The position numbers were made by a program, and so were the translations under genes. Below, one piece after another: positions 12,801 to 63,203 of a DNA stretch of 64,000 nt (position 1 is its first letter; each line of letters begins with the position of its first letter). The notes beneath the pieces are model-generated. The model had not been told where the DNA came from, did no database searches, and saw only the letters and a list, made by a program, of their open reading frames with translations. Source of the stretch: Membranipora membranacea (Eukaryota > Bryozoa > Gymnolaemata > Cheilostomatida > Membraniporidae); contig OU612067.1 in the NCBI GenBank assembly GCA_914767715.1, positions 26,012,162 through 26,076,161 of the forward strand, in the 5' to 3' direction.

Positions 12801-15800
12801 AACTGACCAAGCACTAAACAAGGCTAATACACCAATGTAGGATGGGTAACGGTTACTGCTCTTAACCTGACGCCCCTACCCACGGGATGGTAAAATGGAA
12901 AAAATGTTATTCTATTATGTAGGCTAAACCTATGTCCAACAATCAAGGCACGACTCTTCTGCCAGCTAGGCATCTATAGTGATGTTGTCTTGATTTCAGT
13001 GATTTAAGTTGATGAAAGTATAGCTTGGTCACAAAATTTTGTCTGAATTGGTTTTTGAGACATAACACATCTTAAATGTACCGTTGAGAATCATCTGTTA
13101 CAAAAGGAGAAGAAATTCTAAATAATTTTGTGGGTAGTAAAAAACAGGTTAACTGTGTCTGAAAATGAGTTAAAATTATATGATAATGTTCAGAGTGTCT
13201 CTAGCTTGTATTTCAGTTAATGAAGACCTTTTTTAAAACAGCTAAACACTTAGAATTTGCGACAATGACATACAATACGATCATGATCGTATAGCATTAC
13301 GTCAATTCACTCCATTCATAAAGGGGCATACTCGGATTGAATTCATTATACTTCCCAACTGATCGGAGATAGCTGAATAAATTTTTCAATTATCATTCTC
13401 TAGACACTTATAAAAATTTCTGCTGATTCGGTTTATCTGACAAGCCCATAGATAATTGAAAAAAAAACTTTGAAGATGACAAACACAAAAAATTGATGTA
13501 ATGTCATGACGTTGCGCTATTGCCAGCACATCAACAATCTGGGTAAATGATTTTTAGTTCCTATGCAAAGCTAATGGTATCGGGAAACTATATCCAGATT
13601 AACATTAGTGAAATTCCATAAAACCCCCCTTGTGATTCCTGTTCTGAGGGTGGAATACAAAAATATAACACTTATACTCGATAATGTATGAAACTCAGCT
13701 TTTACACTTTTAACATGGATTTGGACCCCGTGATCCCCGACTATAAAGAGAAGAGACAGCCGCTTAAAATCCGAAAGGCAATTCGTGAAGACCAATGAGC
13801 ATGAACATTAATAATTCCATTGAAGAATCTGTCCTATCAAAATAAGGGTGGCCATTCATTGTAGGCCAGACATAGATGATGTCTGGTAATCTATACTTAC
13901 ATAACTTGTCATTGACCTTTGCGACAGTTTTCCAAGTGCCAAATGGGATTTCGGCAAACAAAAATCAATAAACACCTTTAGAACAAAAAATATCAACCTA
14001 ATTTTAATTAATCGTCCTATCCTTCCAAATCACTTTGAAGTACATCAGACGACATCTGAAACTGAATCTCATGAAGATGAGAGGAGTTAAGAAATTTAGT
14101 GTATGAATTCAAAGCATCCAATTTTGAGAGATACAGCAGAAACTCATTTAAAACAACTTAGAGGGGTTCAATAACTTGTAATGACAGGTCTTCTAAAAGT
14201 GAATCTTAGTGGACATATAATTCTTTGTTTTCAAAAGACAACATTTAGAAAAAAAGGGATAAAGAGGCACATTGCAGAGAGATGATTAATGCATGTCTTC
14301 TTGTTTACAAGAAAAGGCAAAGCTGTGATCTATTTCTATGAGAATTGTTCCACATGCGCACTGTACTCGCTGTCTACCGGGGGCCCATGGGCTTTTCACC
14401 AGCTTCACTAGGAATTAGGCTAATGACTGCCCACTCTCCTCAGAGCTGTATTGGTGAAAGTAATACTGATTGAATGCAAAATATTATTTACAATAATGAA
14501 TTATTGTGGGGATATGGCTAAGTGGGAAAATCACTTGCATGCATGACGGGAGGTGGGAAAAGGACATTGAGAAGTTTTCCTATACTATATACTAACTAGA
14601 AATGCAGGGGTGTATACTAAGAGATGTAATAGAGATGTAAATAAAATCTGGCTTCACCGGGATTCGAACTCAGGCCTCTCGTGCAAAGCCATCTAATCCA
14701 GGTGTTTAAATATAATGATGTAGTGGGTGTAAGTATTAATGAATAGAAAAGTAAACCCCATAGTAGTGGTGTAACTCCTCCTTTGTCACTCTGGTCTAAG
14801 AACCAATTTGGCTTCACCAAGAATTAAACTTGGGCCTCTTGCGCTGTGATCGAGCGCACTAGCCACACAGCCACGCCTGCCCACTGGAGCTCATGGATTT
14901 AAATTGAATATGAATTGGAAAAGTAAGCTGTTGTGTAATTTTGTTTAAACTTATGTTTTTCAAGCTTTCATGGCAGAAATCAGGCAAAAAAAGTGTAAAA
15001 TATATTATATGCACACCCTCACCTGGTTTTACTATACATTTATGGTTGAAGACGGGGCTTTGATTCAGCCATTTCTTCTATTTTTTTAAAAAACACGTTT
15101 TGAAAAAGTAATATGAGGCACTGGATATGGGTTTCTTTAATTTTAGTTTGTATACATATACATTTATCATAAAAAGAGAACTTAGAATTTGTGGACAAGT
15201 TACCCAAAGTTGTACTTAACTGTGAACTGGTTCAGTTACAAAGTTGAATATTTAAGAACCAAAATTAAATCTTATAGCCTTCTAATATAAAAACACAGAA
15301 ATAAATTTACCCTTTAATGATCTTTTTTATCCAAAATAAAATTTATATTGATCATCAGACTGAGAATAGCAGGTACATACTCACCACTCAGGTAGCTGTT
15401 TGAGGTCACAGCCGCTCACACGTAACTCACTCAGTGCTCTCAGCTCACACAGCCACTCAGGTAATGTGTGTAGAGCTCCATTACCTGATACACCTAATAC
15501 CTCCAGCTGAGTCAGTGATCTAATACTGTAATATATAATATATAATATAGATAATTATTAATACATCACATGAAATGAGAGGAGGTGCTTTGTAAACAAG
15601 TTATGTCGTATATCATAAGGATCTAATGGCAGCCCCTCAGTACGTAATCTTGTGTTTATAAAATCATCTCAAAAGTATAATTTCCTTAGCACCGATCTCT
15701 CTGCGACCGGGGAGGGGGGGGGGAAATTCTCCTTGCTGTGACAGATAGTTGACAACAAGAAGTGAAACGACAAATAATTATTTGCATGTCATACGCTATA

Positions 15801-18800
15801 TGATATAAGAATTCAAGACTAACTTCTAGTTATATAGAAATAGAGGGCATTGGATATCCTACATTCCATTTCTACATTGATTAACAATCGAGGATAACAA
15901 CTTCATATCTGCATCCAAAGATCAAAATTCAATAATAGCAAAACCTCAAATTTAAAAATGAAATGCTCATTTATTGAAGGTGAAGAAAAATGATAGATAG
16001 TCATGGCTGAACAATATTAGTAATTATTTTTGAAAAAATAAATTTTAGTCTGCATCCTTACTATGCAGCCACTAAGTCATAGCTGGCAAGAAGGCAACCC
16101 ATTTTTTCATCACTTTATTTGTAAGTTAACATTTCAAAAAATTGAAGATTATTGCAAAAATCTTTTTATCAGTGACAATGCTGTAGTAATTGATAGACTG
16201 AAAATAGCAGGTACAGACTCACCACTCAGGTAGGTGTTTGAGATCACATCCGTCCACACTTAACTTTCTCAGTGATCTCAGCTCACACAGCCACTCAGGT
16301 AATGTGTGTAGAGCTCTATTAAATGATACATCTAATACCTCCAGCTGAGTCAGTGATCTAATACTGTAATATATAACATATATAGATAATTATTAATACA
16401 TCACATGAAATGAGAGAAGGAGCTTTGTAAACAAGTTATGTCGTATATCATAAGGATCTAATGGCAGCCCCTCAGTACGTAATCTTGTGATTATAAAATT
16501 ATCTCAAAAGTATAATTTCCATAGCACCGATCTCTCTGCGACCGGGGGGGGGGGGGGGGAATTCTCCCTGCTGTGACAGATAGTTGACAACAAGAAGTGA
16601 AACGGCAAATAATTATTTGCATGTCATACGCTCTATGATATAAGAATTCAAGACTAGCTTCTAGTTATATAGAAATAGAGGGCATTGGATATCCTACATT
16701 CCATTTCTACGTTGATTAACAATCGAGGATAACAACTTCATATCTGCATCCAAAGATCAAAATTCAATAATAGCAAAAGCTCAAATTTAAAAATGAAATG
16801 CTCATTTATTGAAGGTGAAGAAAAGCTTAGTCAGTGATCTAATACTATAATATATACATGTATATATATAATAATACATCATGCGAGATGAGGAGCAGGA
16901 TCCACCCTATTTCTTCTATCTCATTTTCGCACCAGACCGTTACATAGTCACGGCTGAACAACATTAGTAATTATTCTTGAGACATATAATTTTTAGTCTG
17001 CATCCGTACTATGCAGCCTTACAATAAGTCATAGCTGGCAGGAAGGCAACCTATTTTTTCATCACTTTATTTTTTAAGTTATTTATGTTTTTATTTTATG
17101 TATTTATTTTATTTTATGTAGTTATTTTAAGTTATTTATGTGATTATTTAAGTTATTTAAGCCATTTATGTCACATCATGAAAAACATTAGTAATAATGA
17201 ATTGTTGCTGACACTAAAAGTATATATTTATATATAAGTTAATATTTCAACAAATTGAGGATTGCAAATATCTTTTATCAGCAGTGACAATGCTGTAGTA
17301 AATGATAGACTGAGATTAAGAGATACAGACACACTGTCAAACAACTCGCTATGATGGAATTTTCTACACTTGATTACTACATTAGTTAATCAACGGCATA
17401 TTATAATTTTATATTTGAATCCTAAAATCTAGAATTAAGACAGAAGTTTGGCAAAATTCGAATGTGAAGGCTAATTTATTGGAATGTAGAATTAAAAGAT
17501 AATATAGTTATTGTTATCAACGTTAGACATTATTCTTAAACTTGACAGATTTCCCAAGTCTGAATCCTTATAACACAGCCTTTTGATAATGTATCGCTGG
17601 TAAAAGACAACCTGTTTATTCACTTTAGCTTAGTTATTAATATTTCACAGCCTCTTCAAAGGTAAGGATTATTGAAGAAATAAAAAACAAAATATGAATC
17701 GACTCGACAGACTCACCACTCAGGTAGCTGTCTGAGATCACAATCTCTAACACGTAACTCCCTCAGTGCTCTCAGCTCACACAGCCACATAGGTAATGTG
17801 TGTAGAGCTTTATTACCTGAGGATTATGCTGATTGACTTGAATTTTTAGAGCTGCTTACTCTCTGTGATTTTATTTCTGAGATGTCTAAAACTGTTTTTA
17901 ACAATATTGTATATATATTAGTTGTGTTGTTTTTAACTGTGCAAAGGTATCCTCTTGCCTACATACCATCTATCGCCCACCAAAGTGCAGGGCTCAAAAG
18001 CGTTTAAAGAGATTTTTTCCTTACCACATGTCAGCTTTCAACAAAGTTTAAATTTCACATTTTCATGTACCGATCCAATTATATCGCTTGCTGATACATG
18101 GATTAAAATAATATACCTATCCTAACCTTACCTAATGGCTGGTTCACATTGTCCCAGACGACCATCCCAGATAACCTAACCTAACCTAACCTGAGACAGT
18201 TAATACCTCCAGCTGAGTCAGTGAACTGATGCTGTAATTAATATACATGTATATTAATACATCATGTCAGATCAGGAGCCAGATCCGCCTCATTTCTTCT
18301 ATCTCATTTTCGCACCAGGCCGTTATCCTACCTCCCACTAACTCATGAAGCCATTTCCCCCCTGGATGAGTTACCATGCTGCCATTTTCCTGCTTGGAAA
18401 ATTTCTCACCAATCCATTTTTCCACCAAGACATTTTCAGTTTGGGCTGTTTTCCGAACAAGCCATTCTTCCTCCAAGAAAAGTTCCAAATGGACAATTTC
18501 CCATTTATCACACCATGCAGTTTTCACGGCTTAGTTTTTTTTTAACATATATGAACAGTTTTCACGTCCAGCCAATGTTGTAAAAAGCAGTTTGGGTAAT
18601 GGACCTGTGAGTTGATTTCATTGTTATAGTTTGTGGATTTTGCTTTGAGTTTCCAGCGCACAAGTAATTGTACAACTGACTGATTTCAACAAGATGGTCT
18701 CAATGTTATAAAATACTTTTTCAGCAAAAGAACTTTGTTGTGCCTATAGCCTTTTCTGTACCAATCAGAGAAGAACTGCGAGATCATATTAATGTGATTG

Positions 18801-21800
18801 AATGAATTACTGGGCATTGGGACATTTTTTCACACGCCATTTTGCTACTACACATGAGCCAAAAGTCGTACAGCATTCTTCGAGCCAAATGTCTTCCTGA
18901 ATAGATATCTGGTAAACGCTGACATGGTTATTGGCAATATCCCTCTTTAAAATGAAGCTTACACCATGTGTACACTGCATGGCCTGACTATGCATGTTAA
19001 AATTTGCTGTACTAAATTTCAAGCTATTATCAATAACCACCAAACAATGTAAAGAAAATTAAACTCCTTTTGGGGTTTGAGGCTACAATTTTTTCCGAGA
19101 CAATTTCATAATATTCAAGCTTTATCAAACTTTGGAATTGTTTCCTCTTGTAAAGAGAAGAAACAACCGCTTAAAATCAGAAAGGCAATCCGTGAAGACC
19201 AATGAGCATGAACATTAATAATTCCATTGAAGAATCTGTCCTATCAAATAAGGGTGGCCATTCATTGTAGGCCAGACATAGATGATGTCTGGTAATCTAT
19301 ACTTACATAACTTGTCATTGAACTTTGCGAAGAGTTTTCCGAGTGCCAAATGGGATTTCGTCAAACAAAAATTAATATACACCTTGAGAACAAAACATAT
19401 CAACCTGATTTTAAGTAATCGTCCTATTCTTCCAAATCTCTTTGAAGTACATCAGACGACATCTGAAACTGAATCTCATGAAGATGAGAGGAGTTAAGAA
19501 ATTTAGTGTATGAATTCATAGCATCCAATTTTGAGAGATACAGCAGAAACTCATTTAAAACAACTTAGAGGGGTTCAATTACTTGTAATGACAGGTATTC
19601 TAAAAGTGAATCTTAGTGACCATAAAACTCTTTGTTTTCAAAAAACAACATTTACCAAAAAGGGATAAAGAGGCACATTGCAGAGAGATGATTAATCCAT
19701 GTCTTCCTGTTTACAAGAAAAGGCAAAGCTGTCATCTCTTTCTATGAGAACTGTTCCACATGCGCACTGTCCTCGCTGTCTACCGGGGGCCCTTGGGCTC
19801 TTCGCCAGCATCACTAGGAATTAGGCTAAAGATCTGTTATAAGATTTCTGTTATATTAAAGCATTCTGAAATTGATTCGCCTCAACTCAAGCCTGGTAAT
19901 GTGGAGGTACGTAATTTTTGCTACAATAATTGTGGAATTTCTGTGGCGGGGATCCAACATCAGAAGATAAAATATAGTGGTTGTGGTCTGAGAAAACTAC
20001 CTGGCGTTATTCGGGGCCTTAGATATCCTATCTTCTCAAATAAACTCCTTTGTGATTATTCGGAACCAACAGTGATGCCATAACCCTTCCATCAGTGGTG
20101 TAAGGAAGATGAAAAGATAGTTGGGACATTAAACTGGATAACGAGTCATACATCTTTCGATCATTAAGTGAGTGCCCCAGGTTTTTCCATTACCATCCCT
20201 TGTGCACAACAGGAATTCTAAATTTTCGGCAGCAAAGAAACACAAATCTTCTTGGTGAAATGAACCCAAAAATGACCAAAAGTGTAATTGATTGAATTTC
20301 CTACTTGAGGCCCAGTTATAGACTGATGAAGCTATTATATGGCCAATTCTGAACAAAATGTGGTGCGTTATTTTTTATCCTGTAACTGTATGCCTGATTG
20401 TTACTGCAATAGACATGTGCTTTCCCTTTGTGTAGCCTACGATGAGATTATGAATCAATTAGATCAAATGAACCTCCATCCATCTTGATGACTTGCAATT
20501 ACTTTTCTAACAGCTTTATTCCCTGTACATTACGGTACCTGAAACTGACCAAGGACTAAACAAGGCCAATACACCAATGTCGGATGGGGAACCGTTACTG
20601 CTCTTAACCTGACGCCCCTACCCACGGGATGGTAAAATTGAAAAATGTGATTCTATTATGTAGGCTAAACCTATGTCCAACAATCAAGGCACGACTCTTC
20701 TGCCAGCTAGGCATCTATAGTGATGTTGTCTTGATTTCAGTGATTTAAGTTGATGAAAGTATAGCGTGGTCACAAAATTTTGTCTGAATTGGTTTTTGAG
20801 ACATAACACATCTTAAATGTACCGTTGAGAATCATCTGTTACAAAAGGAGAAGAAAATCTAAATAATTTTGTGGGTAGTAAAAAAACAGGTTAATTGTGT
20901 CTGAAAATGAGTTAAAATTATATGATAATGTTCAGAGTGTCTCTAGCTTGGACTTCTGTTAATGTAGACCTTTTTTAAAACAGCTAAACACTTAGAATTT
21001 GCAACAATCACACACAATGCGATCATGATTCACAGCAATTCACTACATTCATAAAGGGGCATACTCGGATTGAATTCATTATAATTCCCAACTGATCAGA
21101 GATAGCTGAATAAATTTTTCAATTATCGTTCTCTAGACACTTATAAAAATTTCTGCTGATTCAGTTTATCTGAAAAGCCCAAAGATAATTGAAAAAAAAC
21201 CTTTCAAGATGACTAACACAAAAAATTAATGTGATGTCATCACGTTGCGCTATTGCCAGCACATCAACAATCTGGGTAAATGATTTTTAATTCTTACGCA
21301 AAGCTAATGGTATCAGGAAACTATATCCAGAGTATTAGCTCTAAGTATTGAACAATTTAATCACAAGTTAAAGATATGTTTTGAAGGGGTGATTATGGAA
21401 AAAGTTGTTCCCCCTGATTAACATGAGTGAAATTCCATAAAACCCCCTTGTGATTCCTGTTCTGAGGGTGCAATATAAAAATATAACATTTAAACTCAAT
21501 AATGTATGAAACTCAGCTTTTACACTTTTAACACGGATTTTGACCCCGGGATCCCCGACTATAAAGAGAAGAGACAGCCGCTTAAAATCAGAAAGGCAAT
21601 TCGTGAAGACCAATGAGCATGAACATTTATAATTCCATTGAAGAATCTGTCCTATCAAATAAGGGTGGCCATTTATTGTAGGCCAGACACAGATGATGTC
21701 TGGTAATCTATACTTACATAACTTGTCATTGTCAGTTTTCCGAGTGCCAAATGGGATTTCGGCAAACAAAAATTAATAAACACCTTTAGAACAAAAAATA

Positions 21801-24800
21801 TCAACCTAATTTTAAGTAATCGTCCTATCCTTCCAAATCGCTTTGAAGTACATCAGAGGACATCTGAAACCGAATCTCATGAAGATGAGAGGAGTTAAGA
21901 AATTTAGTGTACAAATTCAAAGCATCCAATTTTGAGAGATACAGCAGAAACTCATTTAAAACAACTTAGAGGGGTTCAATTACTTGTAATGACAGGTATT
22001 CTAAAAGTGAATCTTAGTGACCATAAAACTCTTTGTTTTCAAAAGACAACATTTACAAAAAAGGGATAAAGAGGCACATTGCAGAGAGATGTGTAATGCA
22101 TGCCTTCTTGTTTACAAGAAAAGGCAAAGCTGTCATCTATTTCTATGAGAATTGTTCCACATGCGCACTGTACTTGCTGTTTACCGGGGGCCCTTGGGCT
22201 CTTCGCCAGCTTCACTAGGAATTAGGCTAAAGATCTGCCCCACTCTCCTCTAAAACTCACATTGGATTGGTGAAATTAATACTGATTGAATGCAAAATAT
22301 TATTTACAATAATGAATTATTATGGGGATATGGCAAAGTAGGAAAATCACTTGCTTGGATGACGGGAGGTGGGAAAATGACATTGAGAAGTTTTCCTATA
22401 CTATATACTAACTAGAAATGCAGGGGTGTATACTAAGAGATGTAATAGAGATGTAAATAAAATCTGGCTTCACCGGGATTCGAACTCAGGCCTCTCGCGC
22501 ACAGCCATTTAATCCAGGTGTTTAAATATAATGACTTAGTGGGTGTCAGTAGTAATAAATAGAAAAGTTAACCTCATAGTAGTGGTGTTACTCCTCCTCT
22601 GTCACTATGGTCTAAGAACCAATTGGCTTCACCAAGAGTTAAACTTGGGCCTCTTGCGCTGTGATCGAGCACACTAGGCACTCAGCCACGCCTGCCCACT
22701 GCAGCTCACGGATTTAAATTCAATATGAATTGAAAAAGTAAGCTGTCGTGTAATTTTGTTAAAATTTTCTGTTTTTCAAGCTTTCATGGCAGAGATCAGG
22801 CAAAAAAGGTGTAAAATATATTATATGCACACCCTCACCTGGTTTTACTATACATTTGTGGTTGAAGACAGGGCTTTGATTTGGCCATTTCTTCTATTTT
22901 TTAAAAAACATGTTTTGAAAAAGTGTTATGAGGCACTGGATATGGGTCTCTTTTATTTTATATGCATATACATTTATCATAAACACAAAACTTAAAATTT
23001 GTGGACAAGTTACCCAAAGTTGTACTTAACTGTGAAGTGGTTCAGTTAAAAAGATGAATATTTAGGAGCTAGCCTGCAATAATTATGCAAGAACCAAAAT
23101 TAAACGTTACAGCCTTCTAACATAAAAATACAGAAATAAATTTACCCTTTTATGATCTTTTTTATCCAAAATAAAATTTATATTGATCATCAGACTGAGA
23201 ATAGCAGGTACATACTCACCACTCAGGTAGGTTTTCAAGACCACACAAGCTCACATGTAACTCTCTCAGTGATCTCAGCTCACACAGCCACTCAGGTAAT
23301 GTGTGTAGAGCTCTATTCCATGATACATCTAATACCTCCAGCTGAGTCAGTGACCTGATACTGTAATATATACATGTATATATATAATAATACATCATAT
23401 GAGATGAGGAGCAGGATCCACCCCATTTCTTCTATCTCATTTTCGCACCAGGCTGTTAGATAGTCACGGCTGAACAACATTAGTAATTATTCTTGAGACA
23501 TATAACTTTTAGTCTGCATCCGTACTATGCAGCCTTACAATAAGTCATAGCTGGCAGGAAGGCAACCTATTTTTTCATCACTTTATTTTTTAAGTTATTT
23601 ATGTATTTATTTTATGTATTTATTTTATTTTATGTAGTTATTTTAAGTTATTTATGTGATTATTTAAGTTATTTAAGCCATTTATGTCACATCATGAAAA
23701 ACATTAGTAATAATGAATTGTTGCTGACACAAAAAAGTATATATTTATATAGAAGTTAATATTTCAAAAAATTGAGGACTACGGATTGCAAATATCTTTT
23801 ATCAGTTACAATGCCGTAGTAAATAATAGACTGAGATTAAGAGATACAGACTCACTGTCAAACAACTAGCTATGATGGAATTTTCTACACTTAATTACTA
23901 CATTAGTTATCAATGGAGGATTTTCATTTTATATTTGAATCCTAAAATCTAAAACTCAGACGGAAGTTTGGCAAATTCCAATGTGAAAGCTAATTTATTG
24001 GAATGTAGGGATAAAAGATAATATAGTTATCGTTATCAACGTAAGACATTATTCTTACTTAAACTTGACCGATTTCTCAAGTCTGAATCCTTATAACACA
24101 GCCTTTCGATAATGTATCGCTGGTAAAAGAAAACCTGTTTATTCACTTTAGCTTAGTTATTTATATTTCACAGCCTCTTCAAAGGTAAGGATTATTGAAG
24201 AAATAAAAAACAAAATATGAATTGACGCGACGTGACAGCCTCACCACTCAGGTAGCTGTCTGAGATCCAATAACTCCCTCGGTGCTCTCAGCTCACACAG
24301 CCACACAGGTAATGTGTGTAGAGCTTTATTACCTGAGGATTATGCTAATTGACTTGAAATTTTAGAGCTGCCTACTCTATGTGATTTTATTTCTGAGATG
24401 TCTAAAACTGTTTTTAACAATATTGCGTCCAATGAAGACCATCCTCTTTTTTGTTGTGTTGTTTTTAACTGTGCAAAGGTATCCTCTTGTCTACATACCA
24501 TCTATCGCCCACCAAAGTGCAAGACTCAAAAGCGTTTAAAGAGCTATTTTCCTTACCACATGTCAGCTTTCAACAAAGTTTAAATTTCTCATTTTCATGT
24601 ACCAATCCAATATTACCGCTTGCTGATACATGGATTAAAATAATAAATCTCCCCTAACCTAACCTAATGGCTGGTTCACATTGTCCCAGACGACCATCCC
24701 AGATAACCTGACCTAACCTAACCTAACCTAACCTGATACATTTTATACCTCCAGCTGAGTCAGTGAACTGATGCTGTAATAAATATACATGTATATTAAT

Positions 24801-27800
24801 ACATAATGTGAGATGAGGAACCAGATCCGCCTCATTTCTTCTATATCATTTTCGCACCAGGCCGTTATCCCACCTCGCAATATCCCATGAAGCCATTTCC
24901 TCCCTGGATGAGTTACCATGCTGCCATTTTCCTGCTTGAACAATTTCTCACCAATCCATTTTCCACCGAGACGTTTTCAGTTTGAACTGTTTTCCGAGCA
25001 AGCCATTTTTCCTCCAAGAAAAATTCCAAATGGACTGTGTTCCCACCAAGACCATTTATCACACCATGCAGTTTACCCGGCATCGTTTTTTTTAACATTT
25101 ATTAACTGTTTTCACGTCCAGCCAACGTTGTAAAAAGAAGTTTGGGTAATGGACCTGTGAGTTGATTTCATTGTTATAGTTTGTGGATTTTGTTTTGAGT
25201 TTTCCAACGCACAAGTAATTGTACAAATGACTGATTTCAACAAGGTGGTCTCAATGTTATAAAATACTTTTTCAGCAAAAGAACTTCGTTGTGCCTATAG
25301 CCTTTTCTGTACCAATCAGAGAAGAACTGCGAGATCATATAAATGTAAGTGAATAAATTACTGACCAATGGGCAGAACATAAATTAGAACATTGGGGCAT
25401 TTTTTCACATGTCATTTTGCTACTACACATTATTCAAAAGTCGTACAGCATTCTTCTAGCCATATGACTTGCTGAAGAGATATCTTGTAAACGCTGACAA
25501 GGTTATTAGCAAAATCCCTCTATAAAATGAAGCTTACACCATGTGTGTACACTGCATGGCCTGACCATGCATGTTAAAGTTTGTTGTACTAATTTTCAAG
25601 CTATTATCAATAACCATCAAACAATGTAAAGAAAATTAATCTCCTTTTGGGGTTTGAGGCTACAATTTTTTCAGAGGCAATTTCATAATATTCAAGCTTT
25701 ATCAAAATTTGGAATTGTTTCCTCTTGTAAAGAGAAGAAACAACCGCTTAAAACCAGAAAGGCAATCCGTGAAGACCAATGAGCATGAACATTAATAATT
25801 CCATTGAAGAATCTGTCCTATCAAATAAGGGTGGCCATTTATTGTAGGCCAGACACAGATGATGTCTGGTAATCTATACTTGCATAACTTGTCATTGAAC
25901 TTTGCGAAGAGTTTTCCGAGTGCCAAATGGGATTTCGGCAAACAAAAATTAATAAACACCTTGAGAACAAAAAATATAAACCTAATTTTAAGTAATCGTC
26001 CTATCCTTCCAAATCACTTTGAAGTACATCACACGACATCTGAAACTGAATCTCATGAAGATGAGATTCAGTTTCAGGCTAAAGATCTGCCCACTCTCAT
26101 CTAGAACTCACATTGTATTGGTGAAATTAATACTGATTGAATGCAAAATATTATTTACAATAATGAATTATTGTGGGGATATGTCTAAGTGGGAAAATCA
26201 CTTGCTTGGATGATGGGAGGTGGGAAAATGACAATGAGAAGTTTTCCTATACTATATACTAACTAGAAATGCAGGGGTGTATACTAAGAGATGTAATAGA
26301 GATGAAAATAAAATCTGGCTTCACCGGGATTCGAACTCAGGCCTCTCGCGCAAAGCCATCTAATCCAGGTGTTTAAATATAATGATGTAGTGGGTGTAAG
26401 TAGTAATAAATAGAAATCTTACAGCCTTCTAACATAAAAATAGCAGGTACAGACTCACCACTCAGGTAGGTGTTTCAGACAACAGGAGTCCACTTGTAAC
26501 ACTCTCAGTGCTCTCAGCTCACACAGCCACTCAGGTAATGTGTGTAGAACATTATCTGATACTTTAAATACCTCCAGCTTAGTCAGTGATCTAATACTGT
26601 AATATATAATATAAGCTGATTGGTGTATTTATACACAATTGTATGAATATTGGTTTAATATTTCACTCGGCTGACAAAAAATGGGATCAGGGAGGAATAT
26701 CCTCTATCACAGTGTCTCATACATGTTCATACTCTCTAAACAGGATTGTGATTTCTGTTTGGAGATCAATTATGATAACACAATTAAACTTCATAATGAG
26801 ATCTATACGAGCTTGTAATCTCTAAACAAAAAGCTTGAACCATGGCAAAACACCAGAAAGACAAATTTTCAATACGGCTCAATTGTGTGTTTAAGAGAGA
26901 ATGTCATCTCAAAAAGCAGAGTTGACTCCGCAATGAGATACCATAACTCACTTCTGTAGCTGACCACAGTTTGTTATGTCTCTCAGTGTGATCTCTCTCA
27001 GGTTAGCGGCTATCTTATCTAGGTTAGGTGGGATATCACCCTTAATGTACATATGTGTGATCTCCAGTCCTTGTGTAGCTGCTGATAACTCATCAGGTGT
27101 ATATGATGTGAGAACACTATCACTTATATAGGGGATGGAATCGATGTCTCGCTCTGAGGTATGACGGTACCAGATCTCATACTTAGAACCTGTAAAAGTG
27201 AGTCAATATATCACTGATTGGGATAGCAAGACTAGAAATAATTCATACAATGACACATTTTAAAATTAAAATTTCTGCCAAGCGATCTGTTGGATACCTC
27301 CACATCAACCACGGGGAGACAACTCACAATATTGATTTTATAATAAGCATAAAAATCTAAATTAAAATCAATATCAGAGCAGGGTGTTTGGGACCAAACT
27401 CGCTGATCATAGGCCACCTGATGTTTCTCTTCTTGTAGTTGCGCCTTCAAACGGTTGCTAGTATGTGGTATCCGTTAGCAAAGTTTGATTATGTGATACC
27501 ACAAATTCGTACTCCCAACAGTGTGGGCAGTAGTGGCAGTAGTGTCACTGGTGATTATCATACTGACTCTCGTGATCTGACTGGGCATGTAGATCACTGA
27601 TAAACTAGGCTATAGTTACCACAAAGTAGATGTCGTAAGGCTAAGTATAAATCATGCGTGACTTTAAATTGCGCATGTGCAAGAACAATGAGTTTAGTCT
27701 AGGTCCTGAGAGAAAATTTGGTCAGGGAGAATGGGATAGCCCCTGCATGAACTGCCAATCAAAATCAGCTAATAGTGACAAGAGAGAATAACTATCAATA

Positions 27801-28067
27801 TCAATTCCGCACGCATTGAAGAGCATACCACCAGAGCAGGTAGCCAATCAGATGGCTTCGGAATTCCGAGGCTCAATTTTGCAGAGATCAGCTCATGCCC
27901 AGAGCTGAGCATGCGCAGAATGGGTGATTATTATAATCCAGCATTATAATCAATCAAATATACAGCAGACTTCATAGGCTATTATCATACTCACCAGTGG
28001 CCGATAGTCCGGCTCTACTGTCAACATGATCTCCTCTCCGGTTATGTGTTCCAAAATAATTCTCCAT
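3520..28067 (-). CDS. LRR-Roc-COR-caspase-like multidomain gene (whole gene span)
   Basis: The gene is assembled from exons whose splice phases agree throughout: 28067-27995, 27189-26952, LRR exons 26596-26459, 23360-23220, 18231-18191 plus 17816-17717, 16363-16223, 15525-15385, then 7095-5171, 4853-4788, 4576-4149 and 3897-3520. Predicted order: short N-terminus, LRR cap, about ten to twelve LRRs, Roc GTPase, COR, short linker, caspase-fold peptidase. ROCO proteins are large GTPases that couple ligand or partner binding to an effector domain, often a kinase or death domain. Here the effector appears to be a protease. I see no signal peptide or membrane segment, so a cytoplasmic sensor is the likely role. 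The exon chain is inferred from splice signals and phase; no transcript was available. Several intronic LRR remnants are probably skipped. Confidence 0.75.
4149..4576 (-). CDS. Caspase p20-like exon with catalytic His
   Basis: The exon (428 nt) runs from an ATCAG acceptor to a GTAAGT donor at 4148-4143, starting in phase 1 and ending in phase 0. After about 45 residues of linker, the caspase fold begins near FGLVLYSTDQREGATEEANA. This corresponds to the first p20 strand and the following Arg-containing segment, then a helix ending at a glycine-rich turn. LLVVSLMSHGEAG carries the catalytic His in the expected SHGxxG context. The last strand begins at HIPL and continues into the next exon. Caspases are cysteine proteases of cell-death and inflammatory signalling, usually cleaving after Asp. 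Confidence 0.8.
4788..4853 (-). CDS. Short linker exon between COR and caspase domains
   Basis: A 66-nt exon sits between an ATTTCAG acceptor and a GTAAGT donor at 4787-4782. Phase fits both neighbours: the COR exon leaves one base and this exon supplies two; this exon leaves one and the next supplies two. It encodes about 22 residues, including AVVEKGQDVLKQYVSNINL, which with the start of the next exon looks helical and charged. The combined segment is too short for me to call a death-fold domain, though a reduced CARD-like module cannot be excluded. Confidence 0.6.
5171..7095 (-). CDS. Last LRR, Roc GTPase and COR domain exon
   Basis: A single 1,925-nt exon (641 codons) runs from a TTATTGCAG acceptor to a GTGAGT donor at 5170-5165. 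Residues 1-45 are the last LRRs (GELSNLRALDISDN). Then comes the ROCO junction PPYAVCKQGVTAVRKYY. The Roc domain follows: P-loop GKSEAGKTS near residues 81-89, switch II VFVDFGRHKIYNF in place of DxxGxxxY, and base-recognition THCD. From about residue 250, COR is recognised by GRLMWFKNNPKLSCYVF and by its C-terminal half ending with the Cys pair in VFYCSHCLL. All P-loop Lys/Thr residues are present, so nucleotide binding is plausible. COR normally dimerises ROCO proteins. The exon is uninterrupted, unlike the LRR part. Confidence 0.88.
7096..7456. other. Intron, duplicated at 37.3-37.65 kb
   Basis: Intronic sequence upstream of the Roc-COR exon. It is nearly repeated, base for base, at about 37290-37650, upstream of the truncated Roc exon of the second array. 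Nothing coding is seen. Confidence 0.6.
7457..7681. mobile_element. Inverted-repeat element fragment with TTAGG array
   Basis: The sequence is built of GTCTGGGA / TCCCAGAC motifs and the palindromic centre CCAGCCATTATGGCTGG, ending in five CCTAA units on the plus strand. A fuller copy lies at 56524-57013. This copy starts abruptly at about 7457, so it is truncated. Confidence 0.6.
7682..7723 (-). pseudogene. Orphan 5' half of an LRR exon
   Basis: It has the acceptor ATTACAG and then the first 42 nt of an LRR cassette, up to the TCAG where other copies carry the TTAGG-bearing insertion. One extra base shifts the frame (intact copies have 41 nt) and the matching 3' half is absent. Splicing from here to the exon at 7095 would break the reading frame, so it is probably skipped. 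Confidence 0.7.
10150..10508 (-). pseudogene. Non-LTR reverse transcriptase, C-terminal fragment
   Basis: The frame contains LKGVKYLGVTFNSKLTW followed by HIINITSKTNSTLRF, the typical motif after the RT palm in Jockey/CR1/RTE-like elements (KYLGV...LTWxxHI). Upstream residues resemble the preceding thumb region (FDFEIDHMRRQLL). No complete ORF is present and the palm region lies separately at 11023-11313. It sits in the core of the long inverted-repeat element. Confidence 0.7.
11023..11313 (-). pseudogene. Non-LTR reverse transcriptase palm fragment
   Basis: The frame contains DFLSGRKQRALG, VPLGSV (usually VPQGSV), YYINDLPENT and the catalytic box FADD at residues 64-67. These blocks, in this order, are diagnostic of the RT palm of LINE-type elements such as Jockey or CR1. 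After FADD it runs into unrelated Gly-rich sequence, so the ORF is truncated. A near-identical copy lies at 59539-59901. Confidence 0.85.
11755..12478 (+). other. Open frames conserved between element copies, unknown
   Basis: Two plus-strand frames, 11755-12015 and 12158-12478, recur in the second element copy (60342-60602 and 60745-60927); the latter also recurs at 19910-20083. Both have Cys- and basic-rich stretches (for example GCGLRKLPGVIRGLRYP). Conservation may only reflect recent duplication. I recognise no domain and cannot claim they are genes. Confidence 0.25.
14649..14880 (-). repeat. tRNA-derived SINE-like pair, copy 1
   Basis: On the minus strand, a tRNA-like unit with an A-box (GTGGCTGAGTGG context, partly changed here) and degenerate B-box is followed about 120 bp later by a tRNA 3' half with the canonical B-box GTTCGAATCCC. 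Both end in GGTGAAGCC. A tRNA-headed SINE is the likely source. There is no complementary acceptor stem, so it is not a tRNA gene. Confidence 0.6.
15385..15525 (-). CDS. LRR cassette exon (141 nt)
   Basis: Acceptor ATATTACAG, donor GTGAGT at 15384-15379, one base completing a Cys codon at the start and two bases left at the end. It encodes two LRRs: LEVLGVSGNGALHTLPEW and LSELRVSGCDLKQLPE. This is the last intact LRR cassette before the Roc-COR exon, with phase fitting the TGC junction at 7095. Confidence 0.85.
16223..16363 (-). CDS. LRR cassette exon (141 nt)
   Basis: Acceptor TATTACAG, donor GTGAGT at 16222-16217. It encodes LEVLDVSFNRALHTLPEW and LRKLSVDGCDLKHLPE. It differs from the 15385-15525 exon mainly at the residues between the Leu/Val of each beta-strand. 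The downstream intron is almost the same as in other copies. Confidence 0.85.
16542..16560 (+). repeat. Poly-G tract in LRR intron
   Basis: A run of about 17-18 G. Corresponding, differently sized G-rich tracts lie near 15710, 38556, 39040, 39870 and 40707 at the same place in each short LRR unit. On the coding (minus) strand they read poly-C, about 200 nt from the next exon. Confidence 0.9.
16845..17716. other. Intron of the long LRR unit
   Basis: It corresponds to 23361-24244, 41009-41891, 44532-45414 and others. It contains AT-rich TTATTTATGT-type simple sequence at about 17080-17170. No exon is seen. Confidence 0.6.
17717..17816 (-). CDS. 3' part (100 nt) of a split LRR exon
   Basis: Follows the acceptor ATCCTCAG (17824-17817) of an inserted sequence and ends at a GTGAGT donor. 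Joined in phase to 18191-18231 it gives TCA-GGT (Ser-Gly) and a full 141-nt LRR cassette, with ALHTLPMWLCELRALRELR followed by VRDCDLRQLPE. The frame is open. Confidence 0.75.
17817..18190 (-). mobile_element. Transposon-derived intron inside an LRR exon (374 nt)
   Basis: On the coding strand it starts GTTAGGTTAGG and ends AATCCTCAG, so it has GT...AG ends. It lies exactly at the TCAG|GTAAT position of the cassette. CTCAG on both sides may be a target duplication. Removing it restores 41+100=141 nt in frame. Paralogous insertions are at 24333-24732, 41980-42384, 45503-45892 and 56209-57013. Confidence 0.75.
18191..18231 (-). CDS. 5' part (41 nt) of a split LRR exon
   Basis: Acceptor ATTACAG at 18238-18232; the exon reads SSLTQLEVLTVS and ends at TCAG just before the GTTAGG donor. 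Intact, unlike the homologous half-exons at 7682 and 24733. Confidence 0.75.
19840..21560. mobile_element. Half copy of the long inverted-repeat element
   Basis: The sequence matches the right part of the 8657-13743 element (from about 12105 to its right end GATCCCCGACTA). The left half, including the RT fragments, is missing; it starts abruptly after a unit-specific AAAGATCTG. It arose by deletion or recombination between repeat copies. Confidence 0.7.
22465..22700 (-). repeat. tRNA-derived SINE-like pair, copy 2
   Basis: The same paired structure as at 14649-14880, with B-box GTTCGAATCCC in the 22465-22520 half and an A-box-like GTGGCTGAGTG in the other. Confidence 0.6.
23220..23360 (-). 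CDS. LRR cassette exon (141 nt)
   Basis: Acceptor ATATTACAG, donor GTGAGT at 23219-23214. It encodes LEVLDVSWNRALHTLPEW and LRELHVSLCGLENLPE. Phase and length equal the other cassettes. Confidence 0.85.
24245..24332 (-). pseudogene. Shortened 3' part of split LRR exon
   Basis: 88 nt instead of 100: twelve bases in the beta-strand region are missing, in frame. The donor is the weaker GTGAGG. The partner half at 24733 has a stop codon, so this copy is probably not used. The same 88-nt form occurs at 41892 and 45415. Confidence 0.65.
24333..24732 (-). mobile_element. Transposon-derived intron, copy 2
   Basis: GTTAGG...CCTCAG ends as at 17817-18190, with a TTAGG array at 24653-24665 and 24706-24732 around a short remnant of the GTCTGGGA inverted-repeat element. 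Confidence 0.65.
24733..24773 (-). pseudogene. 5' part of split LRR exon with premature stop
   Basis: Same 41-nt half-exon, but a T-to-A change turns the codon after GAG-GTA into TAA. Because the cassette is phase-symmetric, skipping it keeps the transcript in frame. Confidence 0.7.
26316..26400 (-). repeat. tRNA-derived SINE-like fragment, copy 3
   Basis: Only the half with the GTTCGAATCCC B-box remains; a recombination junction at about 26415 removed the rest. Confidence 0.55.
26459..26596 (-). CDS. First LRR cassette exon (138 nt)
   Basis: Acceptor TATTACAG, donor GTGAGT at 26458-26453. It is one codon shorter than the others: LEVFKVSDNVLHTLPEW then LRVLQVDSCCLKHLPE. The first base completes AAT after the AA left by the cap exon (27189-26952), so it is the natural first cassette. 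Confidence 0.82.
26952..27189 (-). CDS. LRR N-terminal cap exon
   Basis: 238 nt, acceptor TTTTACAG, donor GTGAGT at 26951-26946. It encodes SKYEIWYRHTSERDIDSIPY, then an acidic-hydrophobic segment with DELSAATQGLEITHMYIKG and NLREITLRDI, which looks like a capping region leading into LRRs. Two bases (AA) remain for the next exon. Confidence 0.8.
27995..28067 (-). CDS. Start exon of the receptor gene (proximal copy)
   Basis: ATG at 28067-28065, 24 codons plus one base, donor GTGAGT at 27994-27989. It encodes MENYFGTHNRRGDHVDSRAG and four more residues; the last G plus GT of the next exon gives Gly. It is not hydrophobic, so there is no signal peptide. Confidence 0.8.
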
Positions 28068-45892: not shown

Positions 45893-45924
45893 CTGATACC
45901 TCCAGCTGAGTCAGTGAACTGATG
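45893..45924 (-). CDS. 5' part (32 nt) of split LRR exon
   Basis: Matches 42385-42416, including the in-frame 9-nt loss, so the loss predates the unit A/B duplication. Confidence 0.5.
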
Positions 45925-51489: not shown

Positions 51490-51630
51490 CACTCAGGTAG
51501 GTGTTCGAGATCACATCGGCTCACATGTAACTCTCTCAGTGATCTCAGCTCACACAGCCACTCAGGTAATGTGTGTAGAGCTCCATTAGCTGATACATGT
51601 AATATCTCAAGCTGAGTCAGTGACCTGATA
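51490..51630 (-). CDS. LRR cassette exon (141 nt)
   Basis: Acceptor ATATTACAG, donor GTGAGT at 51489-51484. It encodes LEILHVSANGALHTLPEW and LRELHVSRCDLEHLPE, identical to the 55086 exon. Confidence 0.83.
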
Positions 51631-55085: not shown

Positions 55086-55226
55086 CACTCAGGTAGGTGT
55101 TCGAGATCACATCGGCTCACATGTAACTCTCTCAGTGATCTCAGCTCACACAGCCACTCAGGTAATGTGTGTAGAGCTCCATTAGCTGATACATGTAATA
55201 TCTCAAGCTGAGTCAGTGACCTGATA
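55086..55226 (-). CDS. LRR cassette exon (141 nt)
   Basis: Acceptor ATATTACAG, donor GTGAGT at 55085-55080. The same peptide as 51490-51630. If both were spliced in, the protein would contain two identical double LRRs. Confidence 0.83.
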
Positions 55227-56108: not shown

Positions 56109-56208
56109 CACTCAGGTAGCTGTCTGAAATCACAATCTCTAACACGTAACTCCCTCAGTGCTCTCAGCTCACACAACCACACAGGTAATGTGTGAAGAGC
56201 TTTATTAC
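56109..56208 (-). CDS. 3' part (100 nt) of split LRR exon, full-length form
   Basis: Acceptor ATCCTCAG, donor GTGAGT at 56108-56103. It encodes ALHTLPVWLCELRALRELR then VRDCDFRQLPE. With 57014-57054 it gives 41+100=141 nt, open in frame. Confidence 0.75.
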
Positions 56209-57013
56209 CTGAGGATTATGCTGATTGACTTAAATTTTTTGAGCTGCCTACTCTCTGTGATTATATATCTAAGATGTCTAAAACTGTTTTTAACAATATT
56301 GCGTCCAATGAAGACCATCCTCTTTTTAGTTGTGTTGTTTTTAACTGTGCAAAGGTATCCTCTCGCCTACATACCATCTATCGCCCACCAAAATGCAGGA
56401 CTCAAAAGCGTTTAAAGAGCTTTTTTCCTTACCACATGTCAGCTTTCAACAAAGTTTAAATTTCTCATTTTCATGTACCAATCCAACTTTATCGCTTGCT
56501 GATACATGGATTAAAATAATAAACCAAACCTAACCTAACCTAACCTAATGGCTGGTTCACATTGTCCCAGATGACATCGGGATGCCATCCCAGATGCTTA
56601 TCCCAGATGGTCCCAGTCTTATGTTCACATTATAAAATTCATCCCAGACAAGCAGTTAGGTTTTTGTCTGGGATAGTGCTGGGCTGATGTTCACATTGTT
56701 TAGGATCGTCCCAGATAGTCTCAGATCGACCCACATCATGCAAATGTCTGGTTCACATAGCACCCAGATGCAAAATGAGTCCGGGTCCGTCTGGGACAGC
56801 ATCGGGAAAGTTTGACGCTTACGAACTTTCCAGATACTGTCCCAGACAGACCCAGACAGTCTGGGATTGTGTCATTTTCATGTTCACATTAACTGGGATG
56901 GCTATCTTGTATGGTCGTCTGGGACAATGTTCACCAGCCATTATGGCTGGTGCACATTGTCCCAGACGACCATCCCAGATAACCTAACCTAACCTAACCT
57001 AACCTAACCTAAC
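56209..57013 (-). mobile_element. Transposon-derived intron, largest copy (805 nt)
   Basis: It starts GTTAGG and ends CCTCAG on the coding strand. Between TTAGG arrays at 56524-56547 and 56974-57013 it holds an inverted-repeat element: AATGGCTGGTTCACATTGTC at 56546 is mirrored near 56915-56945. Other copies keep only a ~45-bp remnant of that element, so this copy may show the least deleted form. Confidence 0.7.
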
Positions 57014-57054
57014 CTGATACATTTAATACCTCCGGCTGAGTCAGTGAACTGATG
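57014..57054 (-). CDS. 5' part (41 nt) of split LRR exon
   Basis: Acceptor ATTACAG; reads SSLTQPEVLNVS and ends at TCAG. Leu-to-Pro at the fourth LRR position is unusual. Confidence 0.72.
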
Positions 57055-58459: not shown

Positions 58460-59166
58460 GTTGTGGATTGATCAAAGAAGTTTTCTGTATTGTCTTTGTA
58501 CATAACCTAGTTAGAGCCAGCCGCTGGATGGATCCTGACGTACCAATATTAATTTTAAATGATAAGTCAGCGGCCAGACAGACAAAGTCCTCTATGCCGT
58601 AACAAATTACCTGTTTATTCACCCTACACAAGAAAATGTTATATAAAACTTTAATCTTAGAGTTCAGCAATTGGCGTGATCTAACTCCACGCCAATTAGG
58701 AGTGAAGGTTTCCCACGTAGAATTATGTTGTTATCGGACCATTATGATTTTATCGGACAGTTATATATGATTTGTACCTTTTGATTGTGTGTCCATGTAG
58801 ACCTGGTGTTGTGACCGCTGCCTATATAAATGAGAACTTTGATATTCATTGGGAGTCGGTTAGTTGAGTTTTACACTTATAGTTGAGTTTTGATGTATAC
58901 AATTTTAACTGAGTTTTAACTTTGAATTTTAATAGACATAAAATAAAGTATTTTAGAGCGTTTTCAATAACTAGACTTTTTTATTGTACATGTTGAGTTA
59001 ATGGTAAATTTGGATATCTATTGAGTTAGTGGTAATTATGATACAAAACAGACAGTGAATAATTGATAATTATCCCTTATCGCTAAAAGGGGCTGCTCTG
59101 GTAGCGTATACAAAAGTAGTCGTCATGGACGGTCACCTTAGTACCACCATGAGGTGAAGCCAACAC
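58460..59166 (-). mobile_element. Probable solo LTR (orientation uncertain)
   Basis: A ~707-bp insertion in the left arm of the element, flanked by AAATT on both sides (58455-58459 and 59167-59171); the element at 8657 lacks it. Read on the plus strand it has TATATAAA at about 58823, then about 115 bp later AAATAAAG (~58940), the promoter/polyA order of an LTR. The ends are not a clear TG...CA, and strand is given as minus only as a placeholder; internal signals favour plus. Confidence 0.5.
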
Positions 59167-59444
59167 AAATTCTAAGTGTTTTAGTTGTTTTAAAAAAGCT
59201 CTACATTAGCAGAAATCCAAGCTTGAGACATTCTGAACGATATCATATAATTCTAACTCATTATTCAAACACAATTAACCTGTTTTTTACTATATATCAT
59301 TATTTATGATTCGTTTTCTATTCGTAACAGATGATTCTCAACTGCGCATTTACGATGTGTTATGCCTCAAAAACCAATTCAGACAAAAATGTGCGATCAA
59401 GCTATACTTTCATCAATTTTAATCACTGAAATCAAGACAATAAG

Positions 59445-59901
59445 TATTTTAGTGTGGTGTTGTTACAGTGGCGCTGAGTGTGGCCAATGATGTTTTGTAA
59501 AAGTCAAGAGTTGCGATCTCATGTGGTCGATCTCAAAGTCAAATCTTCCAACAAGCTTGAGAGGGTTTGAGGGTCTGATTTTTGATAGTTTCTTGGGGGA
59601 GATCCCCCTTACCCTCTGGCGGGAAGGCGCTGAACCAGGTCCCTCCCGCACCCATCCCGCCTGGCCCTACCACTTCAAAACCCATGGACACAGCCCTGAT
59701 GTCATCTGCAAAGAAGCGGACTATGCGTTTAGTGTTTTCAGGTAAGTCATTGATGTAATACTGGAACAGAGTAGATTCTATGACTGATCCTAGGGGTACT
59801 ACTGATATCACATCGGCCATTGATGATTCATCACTATCACCCAACGCTCTCTGCTTTCTTCCAGACAAGAAGTCTTCTATGAATAAGACAACTTGGAACA
59901 T
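59445..59901 (-). pseudogene. Non-LTR reverse transcriptase fragment, copy 2
   Basis: Carries the same palm blocks as 11023-11313 (FLSGRKQR, VPLGSV, YYINDLPENT, FADD), here directly joined to the tail region after a deletion. Not functional. Confidence 0.8.
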
Positions 59902-62474
59902 TGAACTAGCTTGTCAACCAGAAAACAGCAATCAGAGTTACCTGAATCTGAAAAAGGATTTACCAGGGGTTGCTTGCCCCCAGGGAAGGTTGTTGAGGGC
60001 TGGAGACCTGGCCGCCATTCTTTTGAGAACTCGGGTACTAATACCATCTTGTACGGGTGCCTATTTGACTTTCAGGGATATTAGGTGTTTCTGTACGCCC
60101 TAAGGGGCAATGATGTTTTCAGGCATCTTGGAGGCGAGTGTGAGGTATTGCTATGGGATGGGATCTGAAGGATGTGAGAATACTGACGTGAATTGTTTAT
60201 TTTGAACTTCTGCCTTGCCTGCCAGTCAAATATGTCAAAAATTTGTTGGGCTATTCCTCTTGACTGTTATCCTCATCAGTAAACATTCTGTGGACATACT
60301 CCGGATGTTGTTTCCTCATCATTTTGACCACTTGACCGCAGGTGATACAATTAACCTTTATTTACTTACTTACTTTACTAAATAAGGCCGCTGTGCCTTT
60401 TACACCTCTTTTTCAATCTGTTCATCTTCAATCTCATGGAGTTGCTTGTCAATCCAGGGATGCGAATCTCTGCGTCATTACTGCTTCTGGGGCACATAGA
60501 TGTCCATGCCTTGAGATTCGTGACAACAAGGGTGTTATTCTGTCAGGAGGAGAGGCTCAAAGATGGACTGTGTTAAACCGTAATTGCCGAGTATGTCTCT
60601 GAATTTGGTATGTAGGGTTGGTATGTGGAGCCAGATGTAAGTGTCATATTTGACCAATCGAAGCTAAAAACTTGAGTAGGCCATCTTGTTTCTGTTATAT
60701 TAAAGCATTCTGAAATTGATTCGCCTCAAATCAAGCCTGGTAATGTGGAGGTACGTAATTTTCGCTACAATATTTGTGGAATTTCTGTGACGGGGATCCA
60801 ACATCAGAAGATAGAATATAGTGGTTGTGGTCTGAGAAAACTACCTGGCGTTATTCGGGGCCTTAGATATCCTATCTTCTCAAATAAACTCCTTTGTGAT
60901 TATTCGGAACCAACAGTGATGCCATAATCCTTCCATCAGTGGTGTAAGAAAGATGAAAAGATAGTTGGGAAACTGGATAGCGAGTCATACATCCTTCCAT
61001 CTTTCAGTGAGTGCCCCAGGTTTTTCCATTATCATCCCTTGTGCACAATAGGAATTCTAAATTTTCGGCAGCAAAAAAATACAAATCTTCTTGGTGTAAT
61101 GAACCCAAAAATGACCAAAAGTGTAATTGATTGAATTTTCTTACTTGAGGCTCAGTTCTAGACTGATGAAGCTATTATATGGCCAATTTTGATCAAAATG
61201 TGGTGCGTTTTTTTTATCCTGTAACTGTATGCCTGATTGTTACTGCAATAGACATGTGCTTTCCCTCTGCGCATTCTACGATGAGATTATGAATCAATTA
61301 GTCTCCAAATGAACCTCCATCCATCTTGATGACTTGCAATTACTTTTCTAACATCTTTATCCCCTGTACAATACGGGACCTGAAACTGACCAAGCACTAA
61401 ACAAGGCCAATATACCAATGTAGGATGGGTAACGGTTACTGCTCTTAACCTGACGACCCTACCCACGGGATGGTAAAATGGAAAAATGTTATTCTATTAT
61501 GTAGGCTAAACCTATGTCCAACAATCAAGGCACGACTCTTCTGCCAGCTAGGCATCTAGAGTGATGTTGTCTTGATTTCAGTGATTTAAGTTGATGAAAG
61601 TATAGCTTGGTCACAAAATTTTGTCTGAATAGGTTTTTGAGACATAACACATCTTAAATGTACCGTTGAGAATCATCTGTTACAAAAGGAGAAGAAAATC
61701 TAAATAATTTTGTGGGTAGTAAAAAATAGGATAATTGTGTCTGAAAATGAGTTAAAATTATATGATAATGTTCAGAGTGTCTCTAGCTTGGACTTCTGTT
61801 AATGTAGACCTTTTTTAAAACAGCTAAACAATAAGAATTTGCAACAATAACACACAATATGATCATGATTGTATAGCGTTACGTCAATTCACTCCATTCA
61901 TAAAGGGGCATACTCGGATTGAATTCATTATAATGCCCAACTGATCAGAGATAGCAGAATAATTTTTTCAATTATCATTCTCTAGACACTTATAAAAATT
62001 TCTGCTGATACAGTTTATCTGACAAGCCCATAGATATTTGAAAAACAAACTTTCAAGATGACAAACACAAAAAAATTAATGTAATGCCATGACGTTGCGC
62101 TATTGCCAGCACATCAACAATCTGGGTAAATGATTTTTAATTCCTATGCAAAGATAATGGTATCAGGAAACTATATTCAGAGTATTAGCTCTAAATATTG
62201 AAAACTTTTATCACAAGTTAAAGATATGTTTTGAAAGGGTGATTATGGAAAAAGTTGTCCCCCTGACTAACATGAGTGAAATTCCATAAAACCCCCCTGG
62301 TGATTCCTGTTTTGAGGGTGGAATACAAAAGTATAACACATATACTCAATAATGTATGAAACTCAGCTTTTACACTTACAGATTTTGACCCCGGGATCCC
62401 CGACTTTAAAGAGAAGAGACAACCTCATAGTAGTGGTGTAACTCCTCCTTTGTCACTATGGTCTAAGAACCAAT

Positions 62475-63062: not shown

Positions 63063-63203
63063 CACTCAGGTAGGTGTTTGAGGTCACAGACCCTCACATG
63101 TAACTCTCTCAGTAATCTCAGCTCACACAGCCACTCAGGTAATGTGTGTAGAGCTTTATTATCTGATACCCTTAACACCTCCAGCTGAGTCAGTGATCTG
63201 ATA
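63063..63203 (-). CDS. LRR cassette exon (141 nt)
   Basis: Acceptor ATATTACAG, donor GTGAGT at 63062-63057. It encodes LEVLRVSDNKALHTLPEW and LRELHVRVCDLKHLPE. The array continues upstream beyond the window, since no start exon for this second array is present before 64000. Confidence 0.83.

Follow-up and report, generated by a model that had tools for sequence, protein, structure and literature searches.

The window analysed here, a 64,000-nt stretch of contig OU612067.1, carries on its minus strand a series of short exons coding for leucine-rich repeats (LRRs), referred to below as cassettes, which belong to two tandem, segmentally duplicated genes (A and B) rather than to a single array. 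The explanation considered probable is that these are members of an animal-type LRR-Roc-COR-caspase family, with an LRR array diversified in the germline and acting as an immune receptor wired to a caspase domain. The immune role is suggested by the selection detected on the cassettes together with the domain order: the substitution excess at the codons predicted to form the concave face of the LRRs fits diversifying selection, and the joined exons of gene A encode a stop-free LRR-Roc-COR-caspase protein of 1269 residues. The GC content of the window is 36.8% overall (32-43% per 2 kb).

The cassette exons

All of the 11 intact cassettes named in an earlier note on this DNA were found at the start coordinates given there, and its description of their equal length and phase proved accurate: 11/11 are 141 nt long, lie on the minus strand and are bounded by an AG acceptor and a G/gtgagt donor, with phase 2 at each end and 46 full codons free of stops. 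The first cassette (26459-26596) has the 138 nt claimed for it and the same phase 2-2 symmetry. One cassette corresponds to about 47 residues, that is, two LRRs (LTxLEVLxVSxNxALHTLPEWLCELRxLRELxVxxCxLKxLPE), and each of the six β-strand motifs quoted in the note is present. Since the exons are symmetric in phase and are multiples of three in length, any subset of them, in any number, stays in frame, so that their description as freely joinable modules stands. Each of the 12 unsplit cassettes has the gtgagt donor, which is shared by exons 1 and 2 and by the Roc exon, the two that follow the Roc exon having gtaagt. The acceptor tracts of the cassettes contain 9-10 pyrimidines out of 17, like those of several constant exons (9 for the Roc exon), as compared by eye on unscored sites, and the introns between cassettes measure hundreds of bases or longer.

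Gene A and the boundary with gene B

Gene A extends from 28.1 to 3.5 kb on the minus strand. In the model adopted, exon 1 (27995-28067; one of two copies in the window), which contains the ATG and ends in phase 1, is followed by exon 2 (26952-27189; phase 1 to 2), where the LRR region starts, by the 138-nt cassette 1 (26459-26596), by the intact 141-nt cassette at 23220-23360, by a split cassette (17717-18231) that is 141 nt long and open once joined at CAG/GT, and by two more intact cassettes (16223-16363 and 15385-15525). Four downstream exons complete it, namely, a 1925-nt exon carrying the last LRRs and the Roc-COR region with the P-loop GKSEAGKTS (5171-7095; phase 2 to 1), a linker exon (4788-4853), a caspase exon with the SHG (His) motif (4149-4576) and the last exon, which contains the caspase QACQP (Cys) motif (3521-3897). 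The model omits a split cassette with a stop in its 5' part (24245-24773; the 24k cassette) and the 5' fragment of a split cassette, without its 3' part, at 7680-7722. Second copies of exon 1 (29237-29303, a possible alternative 5' end) and of exon 2 (28577-28814, 95.4% identical) lie between genes A and B.

The earlier note had treated the interval 15385..63203 as one combinable array. Within it lies a gene boundary, marked by start exons 1 and 2 (two copies, 29303-26952) and by a truncated copy of the Roc exon, which parts the eight unsplit cassettes of gene B from the four attached to the Roc-COR-caspase end in gene A. A single gene or array was rejected because the phase 1 acceptor of exon 2 cannot be joined in frame to the phase 2 donor of a cassette; it is also contradicted by the truncated Roc exon at 37.3-36.95 kb, which ends in a stop, and by the presence in the window of just one Roc-COR and one caspase, with long open reading frames (ORFs) between the genes. 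In this haplotype, 8/12 unsplit cassettes are therefore detached from the Roc-COR-caspase end, barring transcripts that skip from 38234 to 26459, which may join gene B cassettes to gene A. The ORFs between the genes (31964-36150; minus strand, 35084-35932 and 31964-32563) appear coiled-coil-like by eye, and neither has a Pfam match at E 0.001.

Domains and relatives of the gene A protein

In a Pfam analysis of the gene A protein, the LRRs scored far over the cut-off and Peptidase_C14 reached 40.9 bits (cut-off 21.4), whereas the Roco assignment is based on fold and domain order, the corresponding Pfam scores being below cut-off. For the Roc-COR exon, AlphaFold yielded, from 18 aligned sequences, a model with a predicted local distance difference test score (pLDDT) of 81 and a predicted template modelling score (pTM) of 0.78, and the top PDB folds matching it were those of C. 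tepidum Roco (6hlu, 3dpu; E 1e-17), LRRK1 and LRRK2. By fold, Roc is followed by COR, and the N-terminal LRRs lie in the same reading frame. The C14 domain contains the catalytic His (SHG) and Cys (QAC), aligned to those of the amphioxus caspase P0047, activity being a prediction from sequence. The identification of ROCO LRR cassettes made in the earlier note was correct, though the note mentioned neither the C-terminal caspase nor the precedent of brown algae discussed below.

P0047 (B. belcheri Bbelb_339110) is collinear with gene A, with 24% identity across LRR-Roc-COR and an identical domain order; among the matches listed (120 of 201), it is the best named match with this order and the only one with Peptidase_C14 in its Pfam list. 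This shared order and the presence of a caspase make an animal the likely source of the genes. A protein search with the Roc-COR exon returned 44 matches, of which P0001-P0036 are relatives with 32-98% identity encoded on 2-13 kb contigs, the remaining 8/44 being weaker LRR/ROCO matches by their domain lists, and P0045 was found as an additional relative in the search with 201 matches. The 36 relatives of the exon point to a family that probably has many members in the source group; P0001, which matches 83% of the query at 98% identity, may be another allele or a near paralogue. About 8000 candidates were scored in each search of the protein collections. When spliced cassette relatives were sought there, 52 matches with a best identity of 45% were obtained and no transcript joining close cassettes, and related DNA sought in viral-contig and genome-contig collections gave no match.

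Selection on the predicted concave face

The concave face was defined as ten predicted codons per cassette, and the introns, which within a type differ by up to 6%, served for comparison. Among the 66 pairs formed by 12 cassettes, the count was restricted to the 25 within-type ones for which 400 nt or more of flank could be aligned: whole-exon nonsynonymous divergence (pN) exceeded flank divergence in 23/25, and the two exceptions, 44391/47898 and 51490/55086, are recent duplicates. Cross-type pairs in which the flank was limited to 130 nt (six, with pN higher in each) and 35 pairs without flank were not counted. At codon positions 1 and 2 of the concave face, the four distinct type-2 units are variable at 12/20 sites versus 114/1200 for their introns (p = 5e-8), and the three type-1 units at 11/20 versus 39/819 (p = 1e-9).

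A two-class codon model applied to 13 distinct cassettes yielded values of omega (dN/dS) of 8.9 for the face and 0.76 elsewhere (likelihood ratio test, LRT, 65 versus omega = 1). For the 10 distinct intact cassettes, the corresponding values were 18 and 1.14 with the exon tree (LRT 69) and 12.5 and 0.88 with a star tree (LRT 82), and 0/20000 random ten-codon classes matched the observed likelihood. The omega values themselves should be read as approximations, given the small number of silent changes and the disruption of any tree by recombination, and the intron comparison is the sturdier of the two. With dN/dS over two codon classes and with exon/intron divergence, along the lines of two of the checks suggested in the earlier note, a nonsynonymous excess at the predicted face codons was found, in keeping with its claim that the differences are concentrated there. 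That the introns are more alike than the exon codons, as it had also stated, applies to the concave-face codons but not to the framework codons, which do not differ from the introns.

Turnover of the array and split cassettes

Exon-plus-intron units of about 3.5 kb are repeated at 92.5-98% identity. The 51490 and 55086 exons are identical, with seven consecutive 250-nt windows free of mismatches, and for the 44391/47898 pair the downstream stretch is almost identical and the upstream one 3% different, a pattern that looks like unequal exchange in progress. At 142-700 nt downstream, the introns of all four type-2 lineages lie at nearly the same distance from one another (about 5%), so that the order of duplication is not clear; exon distance shows a correlation of 0.13 with this intron stretch and of 0.76 with that past 700 nt. 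A repeat of ~2.6 kb, present beside the cassette arrays in two copies (95.7% identical) and a partial third copy of ~1.7 kb (93.6-94.5%) at 10988-13598, 19845-21576 and 59574-62421, may promote unequal exchange.

Five split cassettes contain an insert with CAG/GT...CAG/GT ends that begins with (GTTAG)n (17817-18190, 24333-24732, 41980-42384, 45503-45892 and 56209-57013). Its removal leaves exactly 141 nt, open, in 2/5 (the 17.7k and 56.1k cassettes) and 120 nt, also open, in the 41.9k and 45.4k ones, and the 24k cassette contains a stop. The insert looks like an intron gained within the exon (introner-like), although the same appearance would be expected of any intron placed there. By eye, the insert at 56.2-57.0 kb has a longer inverted-repeat element nested inside, a short inverted-repeat element (end GGTTATCTGGGATGG) adjoins (TTAGG)n runs at 7459-7683 and 56575-57000, and seemingly only one end of it remains in the other split cassettes. 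Cassette fragments are found at 7680, 48913 and 52507. Stubs in which only the initial 21 nt of a cassette remain occur at 16824, 38835 and 40988; they are weak matches (E 0.086) but coincide with repeat boundaries, and likely mark old breakpoints inside exons. Elsewhere in the window are a tandem repeat with a 45-bp unit (332-505; 3.9 copies, 93% matches) and a 277-bp repeat in two 95% identical copies (9172-9446 and 59166-59442), with an inverted occurrence, too, at about 85%.

Gene B

The most 5' gene B cassette in the window is the intact one at 63063-63203. It is followed, on the minus strand, by a split cassette (56109-57054; 141 nt, open once joined at CAG/GT) and by the intact cassettes at 55086-55226, identical to that at 51490-51630, and at 47898-48038. 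A split cassette of 120 nt, open once joined (45415-45924), precedes the intact one at 44391-44531, and a second such split cassette (41892-42416) precedes three intact ones (40384-40524, 39550-39690 and 38234-38374, the last with a GGG/gtgagt donor). From here, the cassettes continue in frame into the truncated copy of the LRR/Roc exon (36953-37289), in which positions 37289-37058 match 229/1925 nt of the gene A exon at 92.7% and an unrelated tail leads to the stop at 36953. The 5' end of gene B was not found in the window, where the sole copies of the start exons are the two at 26.9-29.3 kb. Gene B could be an LRR-only decoy, a cassette reservoir or a recent pseudogene.

Alternative explanations

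Judging from the DNA, joint inclusion of the intact cassettes would be the default, because the donors are uniformly gtgagt, the introns are long and no visible feature forces exclusion (none was noticed among the cassette splice sites, compared by eye and unscored); with every cassette a multiple of three, joint inclusion carries no penalty. It is possible, if doubtful, that the cassettes form instead an alternative-splicing repertoire from which each transcript takes a different subset, as in brown-algal LRR-ROCO genes. The phase 2-2 symmetry of the 141-nt and 138-nt cassettes would keep any subset in frame, two sets of exons 1 and 2 are present, the acceptor tracts lack pyrimidine richness and, in brown algae, as many as nine splice variants have been reported for ROCO genes whose LRRs lie on phase-2 exons (PMC11378527). 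However, the symmetry is explained by exon duplication by itself, the donors and introns bear no mark of exclusive choice as far as unscored sites can tell, the gene boundary cuts most of the unsplit cassettes off from the Roc-COR-caspase gene, and the protein searches gave no close spliced relative. That a caspase-fused intracellular animal receptor combines its LRR cassettes variably, whether through regulated splicing or through exchange, either somatic or rapid in the germline, is considered unlikely. Somatic recombination of germline cassettes, as for the lamprey variable lymphocyte receptors (VLRs), is exceedingly improbable: near-identical introns would permit exchange between cassettes, and some of the unit duplications are very recent, but gene A, as modelled, is already whole in the germline without having to be assembled, its Roc-COR and caspase domains belong to intracellular types, and no recombination signal was noticed, repeats being the only signal looked for. 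Thus, the Dscam-like choice or VLR-like recombination evoked in the earlier note finds no support in a DNA with uniform donors and a gene A that is complete as modelled.

The divergence of the exons might also reflect local hypermutation or micro-conversion rather than selection. Third positions of the concave-face codons vary too in the type-2 units (6/10) and, across 14 cassettes, those of the interleaved framework codons are variable in 5/8 cases versus 6/28 for the other framework codons (p = 0.04). A hypermutated patch is nonetheless disfavoured, and very unlikely overall, as the interleaved framework codons are little varied within types (1/24 versus 18/30 in type 2, p = 1e-5; 2/24 versus 13/30 in type 1, p = 0.006). 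Gene B, and perhaps the entire locus, could instead be a decaying pseudogene array that retains, in its exon pattern, the traces of past selection. The truncated Roc exon of gene B, the dead cassette fragments, the stop in the 24k cassette and the repeats throughout the array would agree with such decay, as would the lack of significant constraint on framework codons relative to introns. On the other hand, no stop interrupts any of the 12 unsplit cassettes or gene A as modelled, and the type-2 units of gene B by themselves keep the face excess (12/20 versus 108/1200, p = 3e-8), so this explanation appears quite improbable.

Several observations weigh against the preferred reading of a germline-diversified, caspase-wired receptor family. 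The 24k split cassette, if included, would bring a stop into gene A, and the model joins the 17.7k cassette across an inferred intron. The framework codons show no significant reduction in variability relative to the introns (4/72 in type 2, p = 0.40), and the identical stretches in the array could be, in part, an assembly effect. Pfam scores of 22.6 bits for Roc and 12.5 bits for COR-A are each under the respective cut-off, and the TM-scores of the fold matches are modest (0.42-0.54 by query length for the Roco/LRRK chains at ranks 1-14). Within the DFGG[H/Q] stretch of Roc, an Arg is encoded at 6681-6683, where P0001 has Gly, as do no fewer than 90% of the sequences in the 18-member alignment, and the Cys motif of the gene A caspase is QACQP, not QACxG.

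Comparison with known systems

The nearest system is that of the exon-shuffled LRR-ROCO genes of brown algae (Ectocarpus, Saccharina; Teng 2024, PMC11378527; Zambounis 2012). In the former paper (PMC11378527), every LRR is encoded by a separate phase-2 exon of 72 bp, positive selection is reported for four sites on the concave face, splice variants join LRR exons in differing combinations, and LRR-only pieces are suggested to be a shuffling reservoir, an idea that provides one of the readings of gene B. Shared with the present locus are the LRR-Roc-COR order, the tandem phase-2 LRR exons of fixed length, the LRR-only pieces, the positive selection on the concave face and the status of candidate immune receptors. 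The brown-algal genes, according to the same account, carry a single LRR on every 72-nt exon and lack further domains, whereas the 141-nt exons described here encode two LRRs each and a caspase is present at the C terminus in gene A. Alternative splicing has been reported for the brown-algal genes; those described here are known from DNA only.

Among animals, LRR-caspase hybrids of amphioxus were put forward in 2008 as proteins that may couple recognition directly to apoptosis (PMC2575513). P0047 resembles gene A in its LRR-Roc-COR-caspase order and in the aligned His and Cys motifs of its caspase; unlike those of the present array, its LRRs do not appear, by eye, to be one near-identical 47-residue module. 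At least 17 ROCO genes with LRR, CARD and death domains form a lineage-specific expansion in Trichoplax (T. adhaerens), for which the available text mentions no repeated LRR exon array (PMC4104024). As far as the accessible parts of these sources go, neither the brown-algal LRR-ROCO genes nor the amphioxus hybrids combine an exon array with a caspase fusion. In the literature searched, no account of such LRR exon arrays in animals was found, sponge ROCO exon arrays included.

Lamprey VLRs are extracellular, and their incomplete germline gene is assembled somatically from flanking cassettes. The present locus is like them in having LRR modules diversified on the concave face, but gene A, as modelled, is completed by ordinary splicing. 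In arthropod Dscam, tandem homologous exons for extracellular immunoglobulin domains vary at binding residues and are chosen in a mutually exclusive manner. The cassettes, too, are tandem homologous exons that vary at predicted binding residues, with no sign of exclusive choice. Dscam is also mentioned in the brown-algal ROCO paper (PMC11378527).

Concluding remarks

If the two genes are germline-diversified members of the LRR-Roc-COR-caspase family, all the intact cassettes of each gene would normally be spliced into one mRNA, and germline changes, namely, unequal exchange together with point mutations under selection, would alter the length of the LRR solenoid and its binding face. Binding of a ligand, probably microbial, to the LRRs would switch the Roc-COR GTPase and bring caspase domains together, and their proximity would lead to cell death or inflammation, all within a single polypeptide. 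The predicted caspase fusion would thus represent a route from recognition to cell death in one protein. Were the cassettes assembled variably, the locus would amount to an anticipatory repertoire in an animal, convergent with that proposed for brown algae.

The array is also an unusually clean case for the study of selection on a binding surface, with the introns as the neutral yardstick. If the assignment to an animal is right, uniform phase-2 ROCO LRR exons selected on the concave face would occur both in brown algae and in an animal, two multicellular lineages very far apart, and such a shared pattern would speak for exon-modular ROCO proteins as a recurrent type of immune receptor.

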